Positions 2,695-25,666 of a stretch of 64,000 nt of DNA are shown piece by piece (positions within the stretch are counted from its first letter, which is position 1; each line of letters opens with the position of its first letter). The position numbers and the translations under genes are program-made. The notes under the pieces are model-generated. The model searched no databases. It worked only from the letters and a program-made list of their open reading frames with translations, and was not told the origin of the DNA. The stretch covers positions 1-64,000 of the forward strand of contig NZ_JHXH01000012.1 of assembly GCF_000621805.1 (NCBI RefSeq), read 5' to 3'. Source of the stretch: Ruminococcus sp. FC2018. Its GTDB lineage: Bacteria; Bacillota; Clostridia; Oscillospirales; Ruminococcaceae.

Positions 2695-4389
2695 ATGGAT
2701 ATTTACAAGGCTCGTCAGCTGATGATGAGCGAGCGGAAAACTATTTTTGACCTGGACATCAACGTGACTTTCTACGCACGAGTGTCCACCCTCTCGGACG
2801 AGCAGGAAAACTCTATCGAGAATCAGATAAGCTACTTCACCGAGATGATAAAGTCAAATGCACATTGGAACTACGTCGAGGGCTATGTGGACAGAGTCAG
2901 AGGTGAGAGTGCCGAGAATCGTGAGTCGTTTATGCAGATGATAGACGACGGCAAGGCGGGCAAGTTCGACCTCGTGCTGACTAAAGAGGTCAGCAGATTT
3001 GCAAGAAACACCATCGACAGCCTGACCTACACAAGAGAGCTTCTCTCCTCGGGCGTGGGAGTGTTCTTTCAGAATGACAACATCTGCACCATAGACCCCG
3101 ACTCCGAGCTTCGCCTTACGATAATGTCAAGCATAGCCGCAGACGAGGTAAGAAAGCTGTCCGAGCGTGTGCGATTCGGTCACAAGCGTGCTATCAAGAA
3201 CGGCAACGTCCTTGGCAACAACCGCATCTTCGGATATGACAAGAAAGACTGCAAGCTGGTCATCAACGAAGAGGAAGCCGAAATGGTCAGGCTCATCTTC
3301 GAGCTGTACTCCACAGGCGATGCCAGCGTGCGGAAGATAGAACGGATACTCTACGACAAAGGCTATCGGGGACGCAACGGCACACGCATACACCACAACA
3401 CCATCTCGGGAATAATTCAGAACCCCAAGTACAAAGGCTACTACTGCGGAAACAAAGTCACCACCGTTGACTACCGCACCAAAGAGCAGAAGTTCCTGCC
3501 GCAGGATGAATGGGTGATGTACAAGGACGAAACAGGCGAAACAGTCCCAGCGATAGTCTCCGAGGAGATATGGGAAAGGTGCAATCAGATATTTGCCTAC
3601 CGCAGCAGCGTGATAAAAGCAAGAGAACACTCCTTCAAGGACAAAAGCGTGTTCACTGGAAAGATATGGTGTCAGGCTCACGATAAGCCATACTGGCGGA
3701 CGAGCTTTTCAAACAGCGCATCAAAGGGCAAGCCCGTCTACGAATGGATATGCTCCGAGAAAAAACGCTTCGGCACAAAGACCTGCGCATCATTTGCAAT
3801 ACTTGAAAGCGAGCTTTACAAAATGCTGTCGGGATTTTTCACCGAGATAGCAGGCGACCTTGACGACTACATCGAATCATTCCTTGAGATATACAAGCAA
3901 GCCGACAACACAGGCGAGCTGCAAAAGGATCTGAACAGACTGCAGGTTCAGCTTGACAAGGAGAACCGCAAGCGTGACAAACTGCTGGAACTTTACATGG
4001 AAGAAACTATCTCCAAGGCGGAGTTCACCGAGCGCAACACCAAGCACACCAAGGTCATCCAGGACATCGAAAACGAAATGCAATACCGCAAAGAAAAATC
4101 CCAGGACAGCGAGCAGTACGCAAAGAATATCCGCCGCATCGGCGACTACTTCCGCAATATGTACGACCCAACAGGCGTAATGACCAAGGAAGATGTTGAC
4201 GAAATGGCAAAGGCGGTCATCGACAGGATAGATGTGGTGCCAATGAACAAAAACACCATGAAGCTGCAAATAAAGCTGCTAACCGGCGATAACGAGCCTG
4301 TCACCTACGTACGCAAGGGAGCGAGGTATGCTCGGCGTTCGGGTAACATCAGCAAGAAGATGATCGACTCCTACAAGGCAGGCAAGTAA
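2695..4389 (+). CDS. Large serine recombinase (site-specific integrase)
   Basis: 564-residue large serine recombinase that would cut and join att sites to integrate or excise the element. The N-terminal resolvase domain starts with TFYARVST (catalytic Ser of the YARVS motif near residue 31) and continues through LVLTKEVSRFARN and SSIAADEVRKLSERVRFG. Next is the recombinase domain (residues about 165-290, with NNRIFGYD and an NPKYKGYYCGNK end), then a poorly conserved zinc-ribbon-like region and a coiled coil (about 400-480, rich in Glu/Lys). The usual DGxSGT stretch is altered to VDRVRGES. The gene lies at the element's right edge against a housekeeping cluster, as expected for an integrase next to its att site. 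Confidence 0.92.
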   Translation: MDIYKARQLMMSERKTIFDLDINVTFYARVSTLSDEQENSIENQISYFTEMIKSNAHWNYVEGYVDRVRGESAENRESFMQMIDDGKAGKFDLVLTKEVSRFARNTIDSLTYTRELLSSGVGVFFQNDNICTIDPDSELRLTIMSSIAADEVRKLSERVRFGHKRAIKNGNVLGNNRIFGYDKKDCKLVINEEEAEMVRLIFELYSTGDASVRKIERILYDKGYRGRNGTRIHHNTISGIIQNPKYKGYYCGNKVTTVDYRTKEQKFLPQDEWVMYKDETGETVPAIVSEEIWERCNQIFAYRSSVIKAREHSFKDKSVFTGKIWCQAHDKPYWRTSFSNSASKGKPVYEWICSEKKRFGTKTCASFAILESELYKMLSGFFTEIAGDLDDYIESFLEIYKQADNTGELQKDLNRLQVQLDKENRKRDKLLELYMEETISKAEFTERNTKHTKVIQDIENEMQYRKEKSQDSEQYAKNIRRIGDYFRNMYDPTGVMTKEDVDEMAKAVIDRIDVVPMNKNTMKLQIKLLTGDNEPVTYVRKGARYARRSGNISKKMIDSYKAGK

Positions 4390-18150: not shown

Positions 18151-18184
18151 AAATCGGAACACTTTACGTGTTCCGATTTTTTTT
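18151..18184 (+). terminator. Terminator of the sugar ABC operon
   Basis: 12-bp perfect stem AAATCGGAACAC / GTGTTCCGATTT with a TTTAC loop and a run of Ts. On the minus strand it would also lie right behind the phage-type genes, but with a weaker T-tract. Confidence 0.92.
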
Positions 18185-18197
18185 GCCTTATTTTCCT

Positions 18198-19133
18198 TTA
18201 CTTCTGCCCCAGGTCGTCATCATAGCAGCTTATTTTCGTTCTCACGCCTTTACTGTCCGCTGTCATGAAAACGGCGTTTATGTATTTGCTGTCACAATCT
18301 GTGGAGGTATTTACCACACGGTCAAACAGCTGCTCATTGGCAAAGGATGGGTACTCAAAAAAGCTGAAATTCCGCTTCTGGTTGGAGATCGCTGTTTTGT
18401 ACACAAGTCCTTTGTTCATATCATAAAGCCATTGGCGGTCCAATTCATAATAACGTGATCGCTTAATGGAATACTTCCCTGTTTGCGGATTGTTATAATT
18501 ATAATCGTAAGTCCCGTCTCCGATCCGCATATGCACATCTGAAAGCATATTCAGTGTGTTTACTCCGAATCCGCAAGAAAGCAATTTTACACCTGTATAG
18601 TCCACCTGTCGGCTATGGCTGAGGGTGGACATAATTTTATTTGTGCCGTGGATATAGGGCAGGCGGTCGTTTGCTTTGATGTTATAGGCGATTATTGCGC
18701 TCCACAAGGTGGAAGTGGGCTTAACATAAATGTAATTCACCACAGGTGTGCCCGTCTCTATGGTGATGTTCGGGTGCGGCAGACAGCCTGTCACAAGTGA
18801 GGCAAGGTCAACGTCGCTTTTTATTCCCGGTTCAGGCTCATTATTGGCTGTGAGGGAGGTATAGCTTCGGGCTGACACGGTGATAAGGCTCATGCCTGCG
18901 CTTGTGGTCATGGTGACCTTATCGGGTATTCCGTGAAAGACCGTATCGGTTCCCCACAGAAGCTTTATACTGCATATCTGGGCGGCGGTAATAGGGGTAT
19001 CGCTGGCAAATTCAGCGGTGAGGGCTGCAAAGGGTGTATACAGCTCACGCTGCATTGTAAGGCGTATCCCCTTTTCAAATGTGCGCTGAATATTGTTCAC
19101 GTCCAGGATCACAAGTTTAAGTGGTCTGTCCAT
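18198..19133 (-). CDS. Phage baseplate-hub-like protein (XkdQ/gpD-like)
   Basis: 311 residues, last gene of the leftward phage-type cassette. The first 110 residues have the beta-rich layout of hub proteins (strand pairs around LTMQRELYTPFAALTAEF, KLLWGTDTVFHGIPDKV, ITVSARSYTSLTANNE), in which a 'v-x-G/A-R-s' strand is followed by a short helix-rich insert (KSDVDLASLVTG). The rest has many Tyr and Asn (GDGTYDYNYNNPQTGKYS). Identification is by pattern and position, not by a firm motif. It overlaps the preceding gene by 17 bases. Confidence 0.55.
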   Translation of the reverse strand: MDRPLKLVILDVNNIQRTFEKGIRLTMQRELYTPFAALTAEFASDTPITAAQICSIKLLWGTDTVFHGIPDKVTMTTSAGMSLITVSARSYTSLTANNEPEPGIKSDVDLASLVTGCLPHPNITIETGTPVVNYIYVKPTSTLWSAIIAYNIKANDRLPYIHGTNKIMSTLSHSRQVDYTGVKLLSCGFGVNTLNMLSDVHMRIGDGTYDYNYNNPQTGKYSIKRSRYYELDRQWLYDMNKGLVYKTAISNQKRNFSFFEYPSFANEQLFDRVVNTSTDCDSKYINAVFMTADSKGVRTKISCYDDDLGQK

Positions 19134-19482
19134 TTTCCACGCTCCTTATCTTCAGGACAAATGTATCTATTCCGCTGTCGCAGCGGTCGGTGAGGCGGCT
19201 TTGCACAAGACAGCAGCCTTGGAAGGTCATGCCGTCAAGGGTCATAGCTGCCATACCGCTTTCAAGGGGTGCGGTAAAGGCGGTCAGGTCAGACAGACGG
19301 CTATGGGGCAGCTTTCCCTCAAGGGTCAGCTCTTTGAACCGAAGTCCCGAGGGGCTTGAGATAAAGCCACCATGCACCAGCGGCAGCTGTGTCAGGGCGT
19401 ATATGGAGCGGATATCATAGCTGTCCAGCAGGATACTATTACCGCCGCAGGTGGCTGTGCAGAAGGTCGTTCGGTCAATCAT
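19117..19482 (-). CDS. Phage tail-associated-like small protein
   Basis: 121 residues, beta-rich, no membrane segment. Sequence such as FKELTLEGKLPHSRL and MAALTLDGMTFQG-like MAAMTLDGMTFQGCC is reminiscent of small tail or tail-tip proteins, but I cannot name a family. It overlaps the upstream gene by 8 bases and the downstream hub-like gene by 17, so it is translated as part of the unit. Confidence 0.5.
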   Translation of the reverse strand: MIDRTTFCTATCGGNSILLDSYDIRSIYALTQLPLVHGGFISSPSGLRFKELTLEGKLPHSRLSDLTAFTAPLESGMAAMTLDGMTFQGCCLVQSRLTDRCDSGIDTFVLKIRSVENGQTT

Positions 19483-19903
19483 CGGGCACCTCCTGTGTTA
19501 CATTTGTCCGCAGTGTAAGCTCGATGTCCCTTTCAAGGCGTTTAAGGGGCATGGACTGGACGGTTTTTGAGGCTGTCATTTTACAGATAAGCAGCTCACG
19601 GCTTGCGGCAAGGGCATAAAACAGCTCATCGCAGGCGGCGGAAAAAGTATCATAATCCACAAAGTCTCCGCTTTTGCCATAAAGACGCAGCTTTATCAAT
19701 GTATCCGTCTGTGCATACAGCTTCATATCGGATATATCATAGGCGCAGGCGGTGACGGAGGTATTTTCTACACAGATGACGGCAAGCATATCCTGTGGGT
19801 GGGTAAGGCTGTCAACGGCGGAAAACTCGGTCATTGGGAAAAAGCCGGCGTCGGTAATAAGGCTTTGCAGGGGTGTCATAAAAGGTCTTGTATCAGCAGT
19901 CAT
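19475..19903 (-). CDS. Phage tail-terminator / neck-like protein
   Basis: 142 residues, in the gene position where phages encode tail completion or terminator proteins (after the head-tail connector). It contains a strand-rich middle (MLAVICVENTSVTACAYDIS, TLIKLRLYGKSGDFVDY) and a C-terminal strand pair (DIELTLRTNVTQEVPDD), consistent with the ferredoxin-like tail-terminator fold, but no decisive motif. GGAGGG lies in the end of the upstream gene, one base apart from the stop. Confidence 0.5.
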   Translation of the reverse strand: MTADTRPFMTPLQSLITDAGFFPMTEFSAVDSLTHPQDMLAVICVENTSVTACAYDISDMKLYAQTDTLIKLRLYGKSGDFVDYDTFSAACDELFYALAASRELLICKMTASKTVQSMPLKRLERDIELTLRTNVTQEVPDD

Positions 19904-19904
19904 T

Positions 19905-20282
19905 TTATCCCTCCATTGCCTTAAACAGAAAGTCGGTACCCAGCGTCACCGGGCGGATTGCTTCAAGGGCGGACTCCTTCAGGCAGCGTGCGGAGCGCAC
20001 ACGGCTTTCGTATGCCACGTCTGCGGAGGCTTTTCCCGAGAGGGTACAGATAAGCTTATTACGGGCATTTTCTTTGCAGACATAGTCATAAAAGGCGCAG
20101 GCTGCGGCGGCATACTCTGCTCTTGAGATGTCACCTGCGGTACACCTTCTATCGTCCAGGAGCCGGCTCACCATGTGGTAGGAATTCTCGATAAGCCCCA
20201 GGTTTTCTGTGGTCTGCTGTGAGCTGCAGCCGCTGAGGTGGTCAAACTGTGCAATTACGTTTTCTAAGGATAGTTTTATCAT
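19905..20282 (-). CDS. Phage head-tail connector-like protein
   Basis: 125 residues, mainly alpha-helical, following the capsid gene as gp6/XkdH-type connectors do. Helices around ENLGLIENSYHMVSRLLDDR and ISRAEYAAAACAFYDYVCKE match the helical bundle of small connector or DNA-packaging adaptors in layout. It would bind below the portal and start the neck. The ribosome site GGAGAGAAAG precedes ATG. Confidence 0.55.
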   Translation of the reverse strand: MIKLSLENVIAQFDHLSGCSSQQTTENLGLIENSYHMVSRLLDDRRCTAGDISRAEYAAAACAFYDYVCKENARNKLICTLSGKASADVAYESRVRSARCLKESALEAIRPVTLGTDFLFKAMEG

Positions 20283-20305
20283 TCTTTCTCTCCTTTTCGT
20301 TTATT

Positions 20306-20346
20306 GCCCCCAATGGGGGGCTTCCCTGCCCTTTGAGGGTGGGAAG
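20306..20346 (-). terminator. Tandem hairpins after the capsid gene
   Basis: GCCCCC / GGGGGGC (20306-20321) and CTTCCC...GGGAAG (20321-20346, with an inner CCCT / AGGG) lie head to tail between the capsid and connector genes. There is no U-run, so they may stabilise the capsid mRNA or reduce read-through. Confidence 0.55.
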
Positions 20347-20365
20347 CATGGTCCAAGAGCTTTTG

Positions 20366-21337
20366 TCAGGAACCGGTGGAAAGTGTCTTGACTGCGCCGC
20401 TTGAAAGCTTGGAGAAGCCAACGGTCACGGAGCAGGCTATCTCTGAACACTGGGTGGAGATAAGCTTGTCAAAGTCTACCACAACGTCGGTACCGAAAAC
20501 TGCTTCGAGGGCGCAGTTCTTATCGATGCCTACGGCGATGTCGCTTGTAAGCTGGGGGCACTTTACCAGGGTCACGCCAAAAGGTGTTTTTACGGCTCCC
20601 CCTGTCATATACTCACCGGCACAGTATTTCATCTGCTCAAGACCCAGGATCTGCGCCATTGTTTCAGGCTTGCAGACCATGGTGGTCATATTGTAGTCGC
20701 TCATGCTGCTCCAGAAGTCGGCAAGGTCGGCATAGGTTATGCTGCTGCCTGAGATAGAGGAGGGTGTTACTCCGTATGCGGCTGTGGACATACAAAGACC
20801 GTTTACGTCTCTGGCGATAGATGCACCCAGGTTTTTGAGGATAACGCCGAAAGCTTCAAGACGCTGCTTTCTTATGGACTCATAGGAAAGGGAGAGCTTT
20901 CTTGCGAACTTTGTCAGGGCGGTAGCTGTGGAGGCAAGTCTTACGGTAGTTGTGGGGAGTGTGCCTGCCTCGGCAACCTCATCGGTGCCCTGTTTTACCA
21001 CGGTAAGTCCACGGAAGTCCATGCTGTCGGTATATGTAGTTGCGGCTGCAACGTAAGGCAGGATAGATGCCTCGTTAAGACCTGCTTTGATAGCTCTTCT
21101 TACATACTCGGGGAAGAGGACTGCGGACTGGGCGGAGAGGAAGAATTTTTCCACTCTGTCGGAGTTTGCGCCTTTGAGCTTTATGTCAAAACGCTTGAGC
21201 TGTCTTTCAAAGGCGTCAAGGTTCTTCAGCTCGGTGTTTTCGTAGGCTGAGTCCGGGTCAAGGTCACAAAGTGCCTGGGTGAAGGACTTGCCGGTGATGT
21301 TATAAAGGGACTTGTCAAGTTTTACGTCGGTATACAT
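20366..21337 (-). CDS. Phage-type major capsid protein (HK97 fold)
   Basis: 323 residues. The first 70 are helical and charged, like a scaffold/delta domain; next comes the E-loop-like strand region (YTDSMDFRGLTVVKQGTDEVAEAGTLP split by turns), then the spine-helix pattern LTKFARKLSLSYESIRKQ and NLGASIARDVNG, and the C-terminal P and A domains (TPFGVTLVKCPQLTSD, AVGIDKNCALEAVFG, VTVGFSKLSSGAVKTL). This order is characteristic of HK97-fold capsids. Good ribosome site (AAAGGAGA). Directly follows the protease gene. Confidence 0.8.
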   Translation of the reverse strand: MYTDVKLDKSLYNITGKSFTQALCDLDPDSAYENTELKNLDAFERQLKRFDIKLKGANSDRVEKFFLSAQSAVLFPEYVRRAIKAGLNEASILPYVAAATTYTDSMDFRGLTVVKQGTDEVAEAGTLPTTTVRLASTATALTKFARKLSLSYESIRKQRLEAFGVILKNLGASIARDVNGLCMSTAAYGVTPSSISGSSITYADLADFWSSMSDYNMTTMVCKPETMAQILGLEQMKYCAGEYMTGGAVKTPFGVTLVKCPQLTSDIAVGIDKNCALEAVFGTDVVVDFDKLISTQCSEIACSVTVGFSKLSSGAVKTLSTGS

Positions 21338-21354
21338 ATTTTCGTTTCTCCTTT

Positions 21355-22254
21355 TCAGATAGTATAATTTTCGTTTTCGTCTGTGTCATCATCTGCGGGC
21401 TGGGTGATGAAGCTCTTTTCGCTCTGCTCTATATCCGCTGCGTGGCTTTGGACGTAGCTTTCAAGCTTTTTACGAAGCTCAAGCAGGCGGTAGATATCCA
21501 TTTCCTCAGTCATTGCGCACACCTGGTCGGTGGTATAAAAGGGGGTACAGAAATAAGACAGCTTCAGTATCTCCCCTCTCACATGGTCAGCGGCGGCAGA
21601 CAGCTTCTTTGTTGCCTCACCAAGCTCGCTTCTGAGCTTTGTAAGCTGCTTTGAGGTGTCCTGCCTTGTTTCATGGCGTTTGGTGACACCTGCGCCCTGC
21701 TGGGCGGGGACCGCAACAAAGGACCACTCATAGGCATCGGTGGGGTCTTCAAGGGTCACATAGCACAGCTTTTCTCCGTAGCGTTTGCCCTTGATATGGG
21801 AGCAGCTATGCTGTGCTCTGTCGGTGCCGCAGACAGAACAGGTATGCTTTGCAACGGCACAGCTCACGGATACCTCCTTTTTTATGCCGCCGTTTATCTC
21901 TTTGATAAGGTCGGCATTGGAGGAGGTCCTGACCATATAGGCTTTGGCGGTGAGGGCGGTATACGGCTGTCCGTCAAGGGTCAGGCGGGTATCATCGGTA
22001 ACGACGGCGGTGGAAAAGATGCGTGCCGTCTGTCCCGACGAGGTAGGGTCGTGGTCGAAGATGCCTGTTTTGCCAAGAAAAAGCTTTGCCAGCTCTTGCA
22101 GAGCTGCGTTTGAAAAGCGCTCGTTATCCCTGTCGATGTCGTTATCGCAAAGGGTAAGGCTGAAGCAGAAGACATCCTCCGGTTTCAGCGGGTCGATGGT
22201 ATAACGGTTTATCATATCCATGACCTTGTCTGTAACGGGAAATGATTTTTCCAA
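21355..22254 (-). CDS. Prohead protease / scaffold with cysteine cluster
   Basis: 299 residues, probable TTG start (ribosome site AAAGGAG 8 bases upstream, inside the portal gene end). The N-terminal 130 residues fit the S78/U35 prohead protease: His68 in IFDHDPTSSGQTARI and Ser129 in KKEVSVSCAV as probable catalytic residues. A four-Cys insert follows (CSVCG ... SCSHIKGKRYGEKLC, Cys139, 142, 151, 164), which may bind zinc. The remainder is a helical, charged region (residues about 195-280) like a scaffold. It would cleave and mature the head formed by the downstream capsid protein. Confidence 0.75.
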   Translation of the reverse strand: MEKSFPVTDKVMDMINRYTIDPLKPEDVFCFSLTLCDNDIDRDNERFSNAALQELAKLFLGKTGIFDHDPTSSGQTARIFSTAVVTDDTRLTLDGQPYTALTAKAYMVRTSSNADLIKEINGGIKKEVSVSCAVAKHTCSVCGTDRAQHSCSHIKGKRYGEKLCYVTLEDPTDAYEWSFVAVPAQQGAGVTKRHETRQDTSKQLTKLRSELGEATKKLSAAADHVRGEILKLSYFCTPFYTTDQVCAMTEEMDIYRLLELRKKLESYVQSHAADIEQSEKSFITQPADDDTDENENYTI

Positions 22255-23415
22255 TCAGTTCTCTCCTTTCTGTAAAGAGTTTTCAAGTACCTGTGCACGG
22301 GCATTATCAAGTCGTGCCTGAGCAAGGTTCACCTCGTCCTGGAGGTTGATATTCGCCCAGTTTACCTTGCAGCCGCAGGGTGCTCCCATAAGGCGAAGGA
22401 AGGTATCTCCCACACGCTGCACCACCGGGGTGAGCAGGCGGCGGTAATACTCAAGCTCGCTGGTGAGGATATCCGCCTGCTGGGAGCTCATTTTTTCGGT
22501 GGTTGACCAGTTAAGTCCCAGCATAAAGGGGGGAATGGAAAGCTTGGCAACTATCTGCTCAAGGAGCTGGCGCACAGGTATCTGAGTATCAAGGACCTTA
22601 TTGTCTGCGCCGATAACTCTTATATCCACGTCCCCTACGGTGACAAAGTCCTTGACAACACCGCTGCGGGAGGCAGTCATGCCGTCCGCCCACTCTTTGG
22701 CTATCGCCATGGCACGCTCCTTTGCATAGATACGATCGGAGCCGTCGGGGGCAGGCTTATAGGTCACGGCGTAACGCACGTTTCCGGCACGCTCAAAATT
22801 CCTGCCGATACAGTCATAGATGCTCATAAGCAGGCTGCTCACCGCAGGAAGTCCACGCAGCAGGGATACTCCCTGGGGGTCCTGTGGACTGGGGTTGAGA
22901 GTGGTGTACATAAGCTTATGGGGGGCGGTAACGGGGATATCCTTCTTGCTGAAGGCGCCTTTCACCTTAATATCAAGGGGGGACTTTCCGCAGGTGAAGG
23001 TATAAAGGGTAGGGTCGCCCACATAAAGACCTTTCACGGTCATGGTGCGGTGGTCGGTAAACACCCTGCCCACTGCTCTGCCGTAGGTCAGCAGGCTGTC
23101 AAGGTACATATCGGCAAAGGTATGGACAGAGTTTCCCGAGATACCCACAGGCACGTCATTGCAAAAGGCATCAAGCTGAGGCTGGTACCTTTCGTCAAGG
23201 GCTTGCAGGGTGAAGTCGCCTGTAAGGCGGACTATCTTATGGATACAGGAATCTATCACGGGGACCTTTTCACGCAGGTCGTAAAAGATGCTCTCGGTGA
23301 GATATTCTCCGTTATGGGCGAGGCGATAGGTAAATCTGTCGCTTTCACGGTTGGCAGCTGCACAGGTATCCGCAGGCGGCTGCTTTTTTTTGAATATGTC
23401 TTTTATAAGACCCAA
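22255..23415 (-). CDS. Phage portal protein
   Basis: 386 residues, close to the length of short portal proteins of the HK97/SPP1-related class; TTG start 7 bases after AAAGGAGG. It contains the wing/stem layout: DSCIHKIVRLTGDF, GRAVGRVFTDHRTMTVKGLYVGD, then the clip/stem region with KLSIPPFMLGLNWSTTEK and a long helix (MSSQQADILTSELEYYRRLL). It forms the dodecameric ring for DNA entry and the docking site of the terminase. No internal stop or frameshift. Confidence 0.85.
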   Translation of the reverse strand: MGLIKDIFKKKQPPADTCAAANRESDRFTYRLAHNGEYLTESIFYDLREKVPVIDSCIHKIVRLTGDFTLQALDERYQPQLDAFCNDVPVGISGNSVHTFADMYLDSLLTYGRAVGRVFTDHRTMTVKGLYVGDPTLYTFTCGKSPLDIKVKGAFSKKDIPVTAPHKLMYTTLNPSPQDPQGVSLLRGLPAVSSLLMSIYDCIGRNFERAGNVRYAVTYKPAPDGSDRIYAKERAMAIAKEWADGMTASRSGVVKDFVTVGDVDIRVIGADNKVLDTQIPVRQLLEQIVAKLSIPPFMLGLNWSTTEKMSSQQADILTSELEYYRRLLTPVVQRVGDTFLRLMGAPCGCKVNWANINLQDEVNLAQARLDNARAQVLENSLQKGEN

Positions 23416-23433
23416 AGTATTCCTCCTTTCTTA

Positions 23434-24711
23434 TCAGTTCCTTTCAAGAGAGAGGGCGAAAAACGGCTGGGTTTGCTCATCGGCGATGACGGTGGTCACA
23501 AAGTAGCGTATATCGTCCATGGCGTGGTCGTTCTCCTTTATGGGACAATCCTTGCCTGCGGTCTCGTCCCAACGGTAGAGGGTGAACTCACGCAGGGTGT
23601 CGGTGCATTTCTCGCTTATCATAAGCTTGCCTTCACGAATGCAGTCGGACACCTTCCTTATGCCTGTGAGCACGTCGTTTTTCGCTGCTGCGACACTGTA
23701 TTTGCCGTGACGGCGGATACACTGGATAAAGGACTGGGCGGAGGGGTCACAGACTATCACTTCAACATTCCTGTCACCGATAAGACGGCAAAGTCCTTGA
23801 TAGTGCTCCTCGTCGGTCCTTCGTTGTCCGCTGCGGCGTGAGTCGTAATAATATTCCTCAAGTCGGTACCAGATGCCTGCCGACCTGCCCCAGAGACCAA
23901 AGCTTGAGGGATTTACGGTGCCGTAGTCACAGCTTACAGCATATTTATCACAAAGGGGCTCGCCCTTGAAGGTATGTATACGGGTATCGAACATGGGGTA
24001 AACGATACCCTGGGGGGCTGTCCATTCTCCTCGGACAAAGCGTTTATAAAAGGCTCCTGTGTAAAGCCGCTTATAACGCTGTATGACCTGGGGGGACAGG
24101 GAGGGATTGTCCTTCAGCCCGAAATGGATATGACACAGGTTCTTTTCACGGGCTTTGTCTATCCAGTCGGTCTTGAACCAATGATACGGTCCGTCAGGGT
24201 TGCAGTTGAACCAGAGCTTTGAGTTCTTTACGGAACACCTTGCCACTGCCTGCTCCACAAAGCTGCGGGGCATCAGTACTACCTCGTCAAGGAGCAACCC
24301 TGCAAGGGTAATGCCCTGTATCAGTGCGGCAGAGCCTTCATCCTTTCCGCCGAAGATATAAAATCGGTTGCGGTGACCGTTATAGGTCAGCTCGAAAAAG
24401 TTGGAGGTCTTATGCTCACGCACGGTCATTCCCATTTTCCTCACACGTACAAGCAGGTCGTCAAGAAGATTGCGCCGAAGTGAGGATATTGTTTTTCCGC
24501 AAAGGGCAAAACACCTGCCGTCAAAACGATCCATCGCCCAGATCACAAAGGATACGGACATGGCGGTGGTCTTTCCGCTTCGGATAGCTCCGTCACATAT
24601 CACGCCGTCGTAGTTTTTATACTTGGTGTTGTGCCACCAATGGAACAAAAACAGCTGTTTCGGGGAAAGCCTTGGCAGATCATTCAGGCATCTCCTCAGG
24701 GACATCGTCAT
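23434..24711 (-). CDS. Phage terminase large subunit
   Basis: About 425 residues. Packages DNA into proheads with an ATPase motor and cuts it with a nuclease. All catalytic parts are intact: Walker A GAIRSGKTT (residues about 41-49), Walker B LLLDE (about 139-143), coupling motif FNCNPDG (about 168-174), and RNase H-like nuclease acidics at VSCDYG (Asp about 262), VCDPS (Asp about 322) and MDDIRYF (Asp-Asp about 399-400). The start at 24711 fits AAGGACGGTG; it overlaps the small-subunit gene by 32 bases. A PBSX-type / Terminase_3 relative. Confidence 0.93.
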   Translation of the reverse strand: MTMSLRRCLNDLPRLSPKQLFLFHWWHNTKYKNYDGVICDGAIRSGKTTAMSVSFVIWAMDRFDGRCFALCGKTISSLRRNLLDDLLVRVRKMGMTVREHKTSNFFELTYNGHRNRFYIFGGKDEGSAALIQGITLAGLLLDEVVLMPRSFVEQAVARCSVKNSKLWFNCNPDGPYHWFKTDWIDKAREKNLCHIHFGLKDNPSLSPQVIQRYKRLYTGAFYKRFVRGEWTAPQGIVYPMFDTRIHTFKGEPLCDKYAVSCDYGTVNPSSFGLWGRSAGIWYRLEEYYYDSRRSGQRRTDEEHYQGLCRLIGDRNVEVIVCDPSAQSFIQCIRRHGKYSVAAAKNDVLTGIRKVSDCIREGKLMISEKCTDTLREFTLYRWDETAGKDCPIKENDHAMDDIRYFVTTVIADEQTQPFFALSLERN

Positions 24712-25195
24712 CACCGTCCTTCAGCATATAGGATATATCCTCATCAGAGGTGCGGCAGACGGCAGAGAGAAAATCATCTGCTTTGCTGTCGCTTTGAAGC
24801 TTGTCGTCAAGCTCAAGAAGCTTTTCCAGCGCCTTCTGGCGGTCAAAGAACTTTACCTCTACCCCGCCGCCTTTGACTCGCTTTATCTCACTTATATTGA
24901 AAAGGTCAGAGTGGGCTATGGCGTAGGGGGTGGGCTGGTCGGAAAAAATCAGGGACACAGCATCGTTGACGCTTCCAAAGGCAAGACGGGCAAGCCCTGC
25001 ACGTACCTCGGAAAAGGAATAGGGGGCGCTGCTTTCTATGCTTCGCAGGCTTTTTTGCACCCCGGGGGTGTTCGCCATGCGCTCCCCTTCGGTCTTTGCT
25101 TTGCTTGGTGGGATACCCAGACGCACTGCCGTTTCAAAGCTGTTGCGCAAACGGGCGTAAAGCTGGGCAAAGGTTTTTGTGGTCAGATTTTTCAT
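24680..25195 (-). CDS. Phage terminase small subunit
   Basis: 171 residues from the ATG at 25195 (9 bases after AAGGAG); an ATG two codons upstream is possible. The N-terminal part is helical and basic, then GIPPSKAKTEGERMANTPGVQKSL resembles the small-terminase segment that pairs a helix-turn-helix with a linker; the middle is an oligomerisation helix, and the C-terminus is acidic (GDDDVPEEMPE) and would contact the large subunit. It recognises the DNA to be packaged. First gene of the cassette. Confidence 0.75.
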   Translation of the reverse strand: MKNLTTKTFAQLYARLRNSFETAVRLGIPPSKAKTEGERMANTPGVQKSLRSIESSAPYSFSEVRAGLARLAFGSVNDAVSLIFSDQPTPYAIAHSDLFNISEIKRVKGGGVEVKFFDRQKALEKLLELDDKLQSDSKADDFLSAVCRTSDEDISYMLKDGDDDVPEEMPE

Positions 25196-25242
25196 GGTCA
25201 TCGGCTCCTTTGTTGCGTATTTAAGTTGTATTGGTTGGATAT

Positions 25243-25326
25243 AAGGACTGTTTTTGGTGACCTGCTAAAGAATTATCCGGCAGCAGCAGAATTGTCAGCT
25301 TTAAGTCACCCAATGGAAAAGTCCTT
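25243..25326 (-). promoter_or_regulatory. Nested stem structure upstream of the terminase genes
   Basis: Three arms nest without conflict: 25243-25249 with 25320-25326 (7 bp), 25256-25261 with 25305-25310 (6 bp), 25266-25270 with 25299-25303 (5 bp). It lies 48 bases upstream of the terS start, so it may be a 5'-leader RNA fold. I match it to no known riboswitch. Confidence 0.45.
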
Positions 25327-25351
25327 TCACTAATAGCGAAAAAGGGGGGAT

Positions 25352-25375
25352 TTGTTGCATTGAAACGTGCAACAA
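25352..25375. promoter_or_regulatory. Inverted repeat, possible operator
   Basis: TTGTTGCA / TGCAACAA, perfect 8-bp arms with an 8-base spacer. A related palindrome TAGTTG-TTG-CAACTA lies at 25594-25608, which suggests a regulator binding both. Confidence 0.45.
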
Positions 25376-25666
25376 TTACAGAAAATCGGTATAATTAGTT
25401 CTTTTATCATTTTTGTGCACAAAAAGGGGACGCTTGTTTTGTGGGAAAAGACGGATAAGATGCGGTAAGATGTGAATTATTTGGGAGAAAAAACAATCTG
25501 CACACAAGAGCAGAAAGGTAGTCGGGTGGACATAATGCACATACAAGCGAGTGTATCTCCGTGCAAAAGTTACATATAATGAGTATGTATAATTAGTTGT
25601 TGCAACTATTTTCATAATAATTTACAGTTATTTTTGGCGAACACCTAACATTTGATAACTGTGGGC

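Follow-up and report, generated by a model that had tools for sequence, protein, structure and literature searches.

The window analyzed here, 64,000 nucleotides from Ruminococcus sp. FC2018 (contig NZ_JHXH01000012.1, positions 1 to 64,000), contains a cassette of nine leftward genes at 18198–25201. We consider it likely that this cassette represents the operon by which a domesticated phage builds its head and packages DNA; the element would form a particle resembling a gene transfer agent (GTA) and would be inherited vertically in Ruminococcus and its relatives, with cargo and transfer being putative. The sequences show an intact and selected DNA-packaging head with a baseplate hub, a co-inherited operon for fibre and lysis proteins, and a promoter shared among relatives. 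Furthermore, we infer that lysis would be triggered by the SOS response, that packaging would depend on a palindromic promoter box, and that host DNA would be packed as cargo and delivered to kin.

Head and packaging genes

All nine open reading frames (ORFs) are intact, and the ORF list bore out the initial annotation, i.e., unbroken, tightly packed leftward genes in the order described. Neighbouring genes overlap by 35, 8, and 17 bases or are separated by 0–83 bases. Both terminase subunits, the portal, and the major capsid protein were recognized by family matches (Table 1). In the large terminase (TerL), whose catalytic motifs had been described as complete, the residues of what we take to be the usual ATPase and nuclease motifs are invariant across 18 aligned sequences, including the one from the window. 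PF03354 yielded no terminase match in this genome and is the wrong family for the cassette TerL. The small terminase (TerS) matches PF03592 over residues 8–130, and its N-terminal helices overlay the DNA-binding domain of the SF6 small terminase (Foldseek, 4zc3; TM-score 0.82 by target, but E-value 1.9). A short TerS without this DNA-binding-like domain occurs in two relatives, L140 and L213.

Gene 4 had been called a protease, a label that comes from its position and one weak match (E-value 0.07); its PHROG family is of unknown function, and we list the product as a putative head protease or scaffold. Genes 6–9 had no significant family match in Pfam and PHROG profile searches. Of the products described as tail-like, gene 8 keeps this label by position, and gene 9 has the fold of a baseplate hub: its AlphaFold2 model (pLDDT 92.9) matches the central hub of Mu-like baseplates (Foldseek: 3d37, 6.9e-17; 3cdd, 4.5e-15; Mu baseplate, 5.3e-15). 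The ORF list and the family scans of the cassette revealed neither integrase nor replication genes, and the cassette lacks a sheath or tail-tube gene. An ordinary prophage was considered and rejected, as no integrase, replication, full tail, or lysis genes surround the head genes. Both proposed boundaries were recovered, with a terminator of the sugar-transport operon found in a terminator scan on one side and glgP, confirmed as a phosphorylase by family scan, on the other.

Inheritance and selection within Ruminococcus

The portal is a single-copy gene in 26 of the 29 Ruminococcus genomes and in all 20 good ones; the three genomes without a match are 80–87% complete. For synteny, 25 genus loci were fetched, of which 19 carry all nine genes in order. 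A further locus (L049) likewise shows nine ORFs in position, gene 8 being unlabelled, and the remaining five are truncated at contig ends. The cassette is adjoined by glgP in 11 of the 25 loci, and in 10 a sugar permease borders the opposite side, flank genes being mostly named by eye from their translations with spot-check family scans. No integrase or replication genes were noticed in the flanks read by eye, of which no systematic scan was made, but a recombinase is present in L042, ~3.8 kb away from TerS, and another in L211, at a distance of ~6.5 kb from TerL.

Comparison of the window with its nearest relative (G017) gave ratios of nonsynonymous to synonymous divergence (dN/dS) of 0.08–0.30 for all nine genes, with TerL among the most constrained, which argues against a decaying remnant. 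Synonymous divergence (dS) was 0.49–0.87 in the cassette and 0.51 in glgP, and lower in the neighbouring sugar genes (0.08–0.13). In eight further pairs, defined dN/dS values ranged from 0.02 to 0.37, and three were undefined with synonymous sites saturated. Trees of TerL, portal, and capsid versus glgP for nine loci have three sister pairs in common, and their deeper nodes are poorly supported. The initial annotation had proposed these comparisons of synteny and per-gene dN/dS, and had held that a full prophage at this site in sister strains or neutral decay would point to a simple remnant; we found neither. In the pair L041/L049 (G018, G004), dS was ~0.2 in TerS, TerL, and portal versus 0.9–2.0 from the capsid gene to gene 9, and the cassette looks mosaic here, as if recombined.

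A palindromic box in a promoter-like module

A palindromic box precedes TerS in the window. Among 24 TerS upstream regions of the genus, 14 contain its core, TTGCA-N-TGCAA, against 0.125 expected from mononucleotide shuffles, and the core is also present in 9 of 18 loci from other genera. Since the match among box sites extends on both sides of the box in the alignment, the box and its flanks look like one promoter module. No Rfam match was obtained at the window promoter, and only matches far below threshold at L264; sigma-70 matches were no more frequent than in shuffles.

Genome-wide, the strict box pattern yielded 76 sites in the 29 genomes versus 8 for a reversed control, many of them without a clear tie to the head or lysis genes. 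The genome of the window (G000) has two sites, one at the cassette and one beside mfd, where a full copy of the promoter module is found (L247:8676, corresponding to G000:C2:145675) as well as in G017 (L248:9548). No ORF of more than 70 aa lies behind this mfd-side module, which is maybe a small RNA or a relic. G001 carries twelve box sites (L257–L266), some of them in a dispersed repeat with a short recurring ORF. In five genomes (L249, L250, L251, L255, and L260), the box precedes a DUF6291-type gene, two of which were confirmed by family scan; this gene is a possible further regulon member.

A second operon with fibre and lysis genes

The claim that lysis genes are missing applies to the cassette, whereas the genome does have them. 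An unlinked second operon (G000:C6 15742-18984), beyond the view of the initial annotation, encodes fibre-like, phage-type, and XhlA-like proteins together with a holin and a GH25 endolysin (Table 1). In four R. albus-type species, gene 9 is directly followed by a ~115-aa gene and a GH25 muramidase, and the N-terminus encoded by the first gene of the second operon shows homology to the gene that comes behind gene 9 (hhalign 97.4%, E-value 1e-11). A profile built from six GH25 proteins of R. albus-type cassettes matched all 29 genus genomes, with at least two matches in each, most of them other GH25 proteins; its best match in this genome (6e-61) is the second-operon endolysin. Of the 13 genomes whose GH25 matches were strongest, seven have the palindromic box 476–743 bp before GH25 and two have GH25 directly after the cassette, while in four neither box nor cassette was seen within the 1.5 kb examined.

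We examined the second operon in five genomes (G000, G017, G007, G020, and G022). It adjoins a SpoVT_C gene in each of them, and in four the gene on the opposite side encodes RNase R. Its dN/dS was 0.06–0.25 for four genes between G000 and G017; the pair G007/G022 gave 0.27 and 0.49 for two genes, near saturation. The motif GAACN4GTTC, a candidate LexA site through which LexA may control this operon, occurs at −89 to −96 in four of the five genomes, with a near match in the fifth; it is absent from the 64-kb window and was found in 1 of 23 TerS upstream regions of relatives. The fibre/lysis operon appears to be co-inherited with the head cassette.

Table 1. Features of the head cassette, its promoter, and the second operon. 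Positions refer to the window unless a contig is given.
Feature	Position	Strand	Basis or remark
Terminator of sugar-transport operon, cassette boundary	18151..18179	+	terminator scan
Gene 9, baseplate hub (Mu gp44 / T4 gp27 fold)	18198..19133	-	AlphaFold2 model and Foldseek
Gene 8, tail-like	19117..19482	-	position; fastest evolving of the nine, dN/dS 0.30
Gene 7, neck or closure-like	19475..19903	-	position; conserved in genus
Gene 6, connector-like	19905..20282	-	position; conserved in genus
Gene 5, major capsid protein	20366..21337	-	phrog_3922 4.2e-70; PF25209 1.1e-14
Gene 4, putative head protease or scaffold	21355..22254	-	position; phrog_16951 6.9e-98 (family of unknown function)
Gene 3, portal	22255..23415	-	phrog_30703 1.2e-135
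Gene 2, large terminase (TerL)	23434..24714	-	phrog_2 7.1e-49; PF03237 2.7e-15; alignment
Gene 1, small terminase (TerS)	24680..25201	-	PF03592 1.1e-8; model and Foldseek; N-terminal DNA-binding-like domain kept
Promoter-like module around box, limits approximate	25314..25448	-	AAATGATAAA upstream, TATTAGTGAAAGG downstream; site alignment
Palindromic box GTTGCACGTTTCAATGCAAC upstream of TerS	25354..25373	-	a second identical copy lies at C2:145675 of this genome
Fibre-like protein, 401 aa	second operon, G000:C6 15742-18984		first gene
Phage-type protein, 164 aa	second operon, G000:C6 15742-18984		phrog_5417 2.5e-5
XhlA-like protein, 91 aa	second operon, G000:C6 15742-18984		phrog_1863 1e-10; XhlA itself E 0.03
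Holin	second operon, G000:C6 15742-18984		phrog_1299 1.4e-17
GH25 endolysin with CW_7 repeats	second operon, G000:C6 15742-18984		phrog_291 1.8e-48

Elsewhere in the window, a serine recombinase at 2695–4389, ~14 kb from the cassette, probably belongs to another mobile element at the window's edge.

Distribution beyond the genus and ancestry

The portal profile matched 173 of 396 genomes of the family, representing 63 of the 126 genera sampled, with two matches each in G035 and G323 and one elsewhere; a few of these matches are weak, down to 9e-4. In an order-wide draw, which overlaps with the family-wide one, the portal was found once each in 57 of 345 genomes and 36 of 163 genera, at E-values of 3e-93 or better. 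TerL was matched at E ≤ 1e-20 in 221 of the 396 family genomes, a count that probably includes ordinary prophages. Of 18 loci from other genera, picked from long contigs with a portal match, 16 have TerL next to the portal. Genes 4 and 5 are swapped in L123, L135, and L136, genes 7 and 8 are apparently fused in L134 and L137, and longer operons with tail genes are present in L125 and others. In small genomes of 0.7–0.8 Mb (loci L130 and L132; genomes G095, G186, and G304), the element is scattered but kept: the portal is on its own, and a TerL match is located elsewhere in the genome, which in G304 means ~2 kb off on the other strand.

The L125 operon encodes a tail sheath (phrog_279, 1.9e-13), a baseplate hub (found by the gene-9 profile at 2e-17; phrog_177, 3e-8), a gp25-like wedge protein (phrog_120, 9e-9), and Baseplate_J (5.6e-41); no ORF of tape-measure size was seen there. 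As Baseplate_J was matched in only 1 of the 29 Ruminococcus genomes, these genes suggest that a contractile-tailed phage was probably domesticated and that Ruminococcus later lost the tail, including the sheath and baseplate-J genes, and kept the hub.

Proposed mechanism and alternative explanations

In the proposed mechanism, a regulator acting at the palindromic box would activate the head operon, capsids would form on the portal, and TerS and TerL would fill them with short pieces of host DNA. In place of a long tail, the products of genes 6–8 and the hub would close off the head. DNA damage would release LexA from the second operon, whose holin and endolysin would free the particles, and the fibre-like protein may help them to reach kin.

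Several features of a GTA were found, i.e., selected phage-derived head and packaging genes, vertical and near-universal presence, a cassette free of integrase and replication genes, and genes spread over several loci, lysis genes included (second operon; box shared with GH25 in seven genomes). A TerS without a DNA-binding domain is not among them. This is one of several points that weigh against the proposed interpretation: as judged from its model, the TerS keeps a DNA-binding-like domain, unlike the TerS of known GTAs as characterized in the accessible part of a review (PMC11841831). Particle, cargo, and transfer are, moreover, predicted for this element from its genes alone. Ten genus TerS upstream regions, i.e., the R. 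albus-type ones and L047, lack the palindromic box, as does the second operon of the window genome, and LexA control by way of GAACN4GTTC is presumptive. The element decays in some lineages; in L124 (G361), for example, TerS is broken or split and genes 6–9 were not found. Next to the second operon, a serine recombinase has inserted into or near spoVT in two genomes: in G017 (domains confirmed) it is fused to SpoVT_C, and in G020 an ORF carries SpoVT_C fused to what, by eye, resembles a recombinase. The GH25 gene of G004 has a phage integrase and an S24 repressor as neighbours. Some of the lysis genes could therefore belong to other elements.

The latter observations favour an explanation that we regard as unlikely, namely that the head cassette alone was domesticated and the fibre–holin–GH25 operon is the rest of other prophages, outside the system. 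The operon is indeed unlinked, without the box in this genome, and GH25 genes are common throughout the genus. However, its constant site beside spoVT in the five genomes examined, the presence of a homologue of its first gene and of GH25 immediately behind gene 9 in R. albus-type species, the head-operon box before GH25 in seven genomes, and its low dN/dS between G000 and G017 all argue that it belongs to the system. Slightly less probable again is a domesticated particle that packs DNA but kills or signals to kin without gene delivery, as PBSX of Bacillus subtilis is said to do. The contractile tail of the ancestor speaks for this reading. Killing by contraction is, however, unlikely in Ruminococcus given the missing sheath-type tail genes and the near absence of Baseplate_J, and packaging genes would be dispensable for such a particle, yet TerL is among the most constrained. 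The same option is left open for FpGTA, the GTA of Faecalibacterium, in the accessible text of its description (PMC12946183). A decaying prophage remnant or a capsid-carrying satellite, to which the presence of only head genes and a few tail genes and the decayed appearance of L124 might point, is very improbable in view of the purifying selection on all nine genes, the single copy in 20 of 20 good genus genomes, the lack of an integrase in the cassette, and flanks common to several species (glgP and sugar permease).

The initial annotation had offered a domesticated GTA-like particle, a satellite, and a remnant as options. The first was strengthened by its presence in all good genomes, the kept gene order, purifying selection, and wide spread. 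The satellite found no support and was rejected, as an integrase/replication module is not in the cassette and sites are shared between species; the remnant is at odds with the dN/dS values.

For the domesticated GTA-like particle, we put forward a wider scenario only tentatively, giving it slightly less than an even chance. It holds that a contractile phage was domesticated into an ancient GTA close to the common origin of several Oscillospirales families, and that this GTA would serve many gut and rumen bacteria as a core organ of DNA exchange, under a two-key control with a palindromic promoter for packaging and SOS for lysis. The tail would have been lost in Ruminococcus, the genes would be scattered but kept in the 0.7–0.8 Mb genomes, and the element would account for GTA-like packaging in R. 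callidus and relatives. Such a particle may shuttle genes between gut microbes; its promoters are testable and suggest a possible link to DNA damage.

Comparison with virus records and known systems

Searches of virus records returned six matches in the phage set and 264 relatives in IMG/VR, of which the best 80 were kept; gene lists were examined for L139, L140, L190, L204, L211, L213, and L220. Bacterial genes stand beside the cassette in L139 (GenBank MT835508; RpoA and RnfC), L190 (sugar-nucleotide dehydratase), and L211 (DegV), each by one family scan, and a free phage carrying the cassette was rejected within the scope of these seven gene lists. L211 also has a serine recombinase ~6.5 kb upstream, and L204 begins inside the operon. 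Phage databases thus hold pieces of the chromosomal cassette as viruses (L139, L190, and L211). A match in a Microcystis phage (27.8%) is a remote true phage.

To our knowledge, few GTAs are known outside the Alphaproteobacteria. FpGTA is the only gut GTA with a named cluster found in our literature search, and no Ruminococcus cluster of this kind is named in the titles and abstracts retrieved, which covered few subscription papers and left preprints outside their scope. PBSX resembles the present element in its Gram-positive host, its contractile ancestor, with hub and baseplate components that have related counterparts in L125 and similar relatives, and possible SOS control; it differs in that 28 of 29 Ruminococcus genomes lack Baseplate_J, the cassette has no sheath or tube, and the lysis genes are unlinked. 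Vesicle-associated DNA transfer in rumen Ruminococcus was reportedly described by Klieve et al. in 2005. It is likewise a natural transfer in the same genus, but according to the accessible parts of two papers (PMC10582989, PMC6524685) the DNA measures 23–90 kb, far above small-capsid size, and the process may be unrelated. RcGTA and CcGTA, as covered by the accessible part of the review (PMC11841831), share the multi-locus organization, vertical inheritance, and a capsid too small for the own cluster (with the cargo size here deduced from R. callidus), and differ in phage ancestor, host phylum, and regulation.

Borodovich et al. 2026 (PMC12946183) reported GTA-like packaging in members of the Ruminococcaceae, Oscillospiraceae, and Christensenellaceae; the packaged DNA of R. 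callidus measured 4.6 kb. The accessible text of that paper describes a gene cluster in Faecalibacterium only and names none for R. callidus, for which the Ruminococcus cassette is a candidate gene set. If the 4.6-kb cargo is made by this element, the 7.0-kb cassette is too big for one particle. FpGTA is found in the same family and, going by the same text (PMC12946183), also combines a head/packaging operon with an unlinked fibre/lysis operon (I and II), lacks replication and integration genes, and is near-universal in its genus; it differs in being of the podovirus type. A candidate FpGTA I locus (L119) carries a portal of phrog_156 and a capsid of phrog_1357, in contrast to phrog_30703 and phrog_3922 in Ruminococcus. 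We take its genome and genus (g81) to be Faecalibacterium on the basis of a 16S probe that matched one genome of g81, with matches in three other genera as well. The Ruminococcus TerL profile had no match at E ≤ 0.01 in six of six genomes of this putative Faecalibacterium genus, and a later search gave weak matches (6e-3 and 8e-4) in two of its loci. The cassette was thus rejected as FpGTA I, and since L119 carries other portal and capsid families, the two look like separate domestications in the same family. If this holds true, the Ruminococcus element would represent a separate lineage far more widespread than FpGTA, considering that its portal occurs in half of the family genera sampled.

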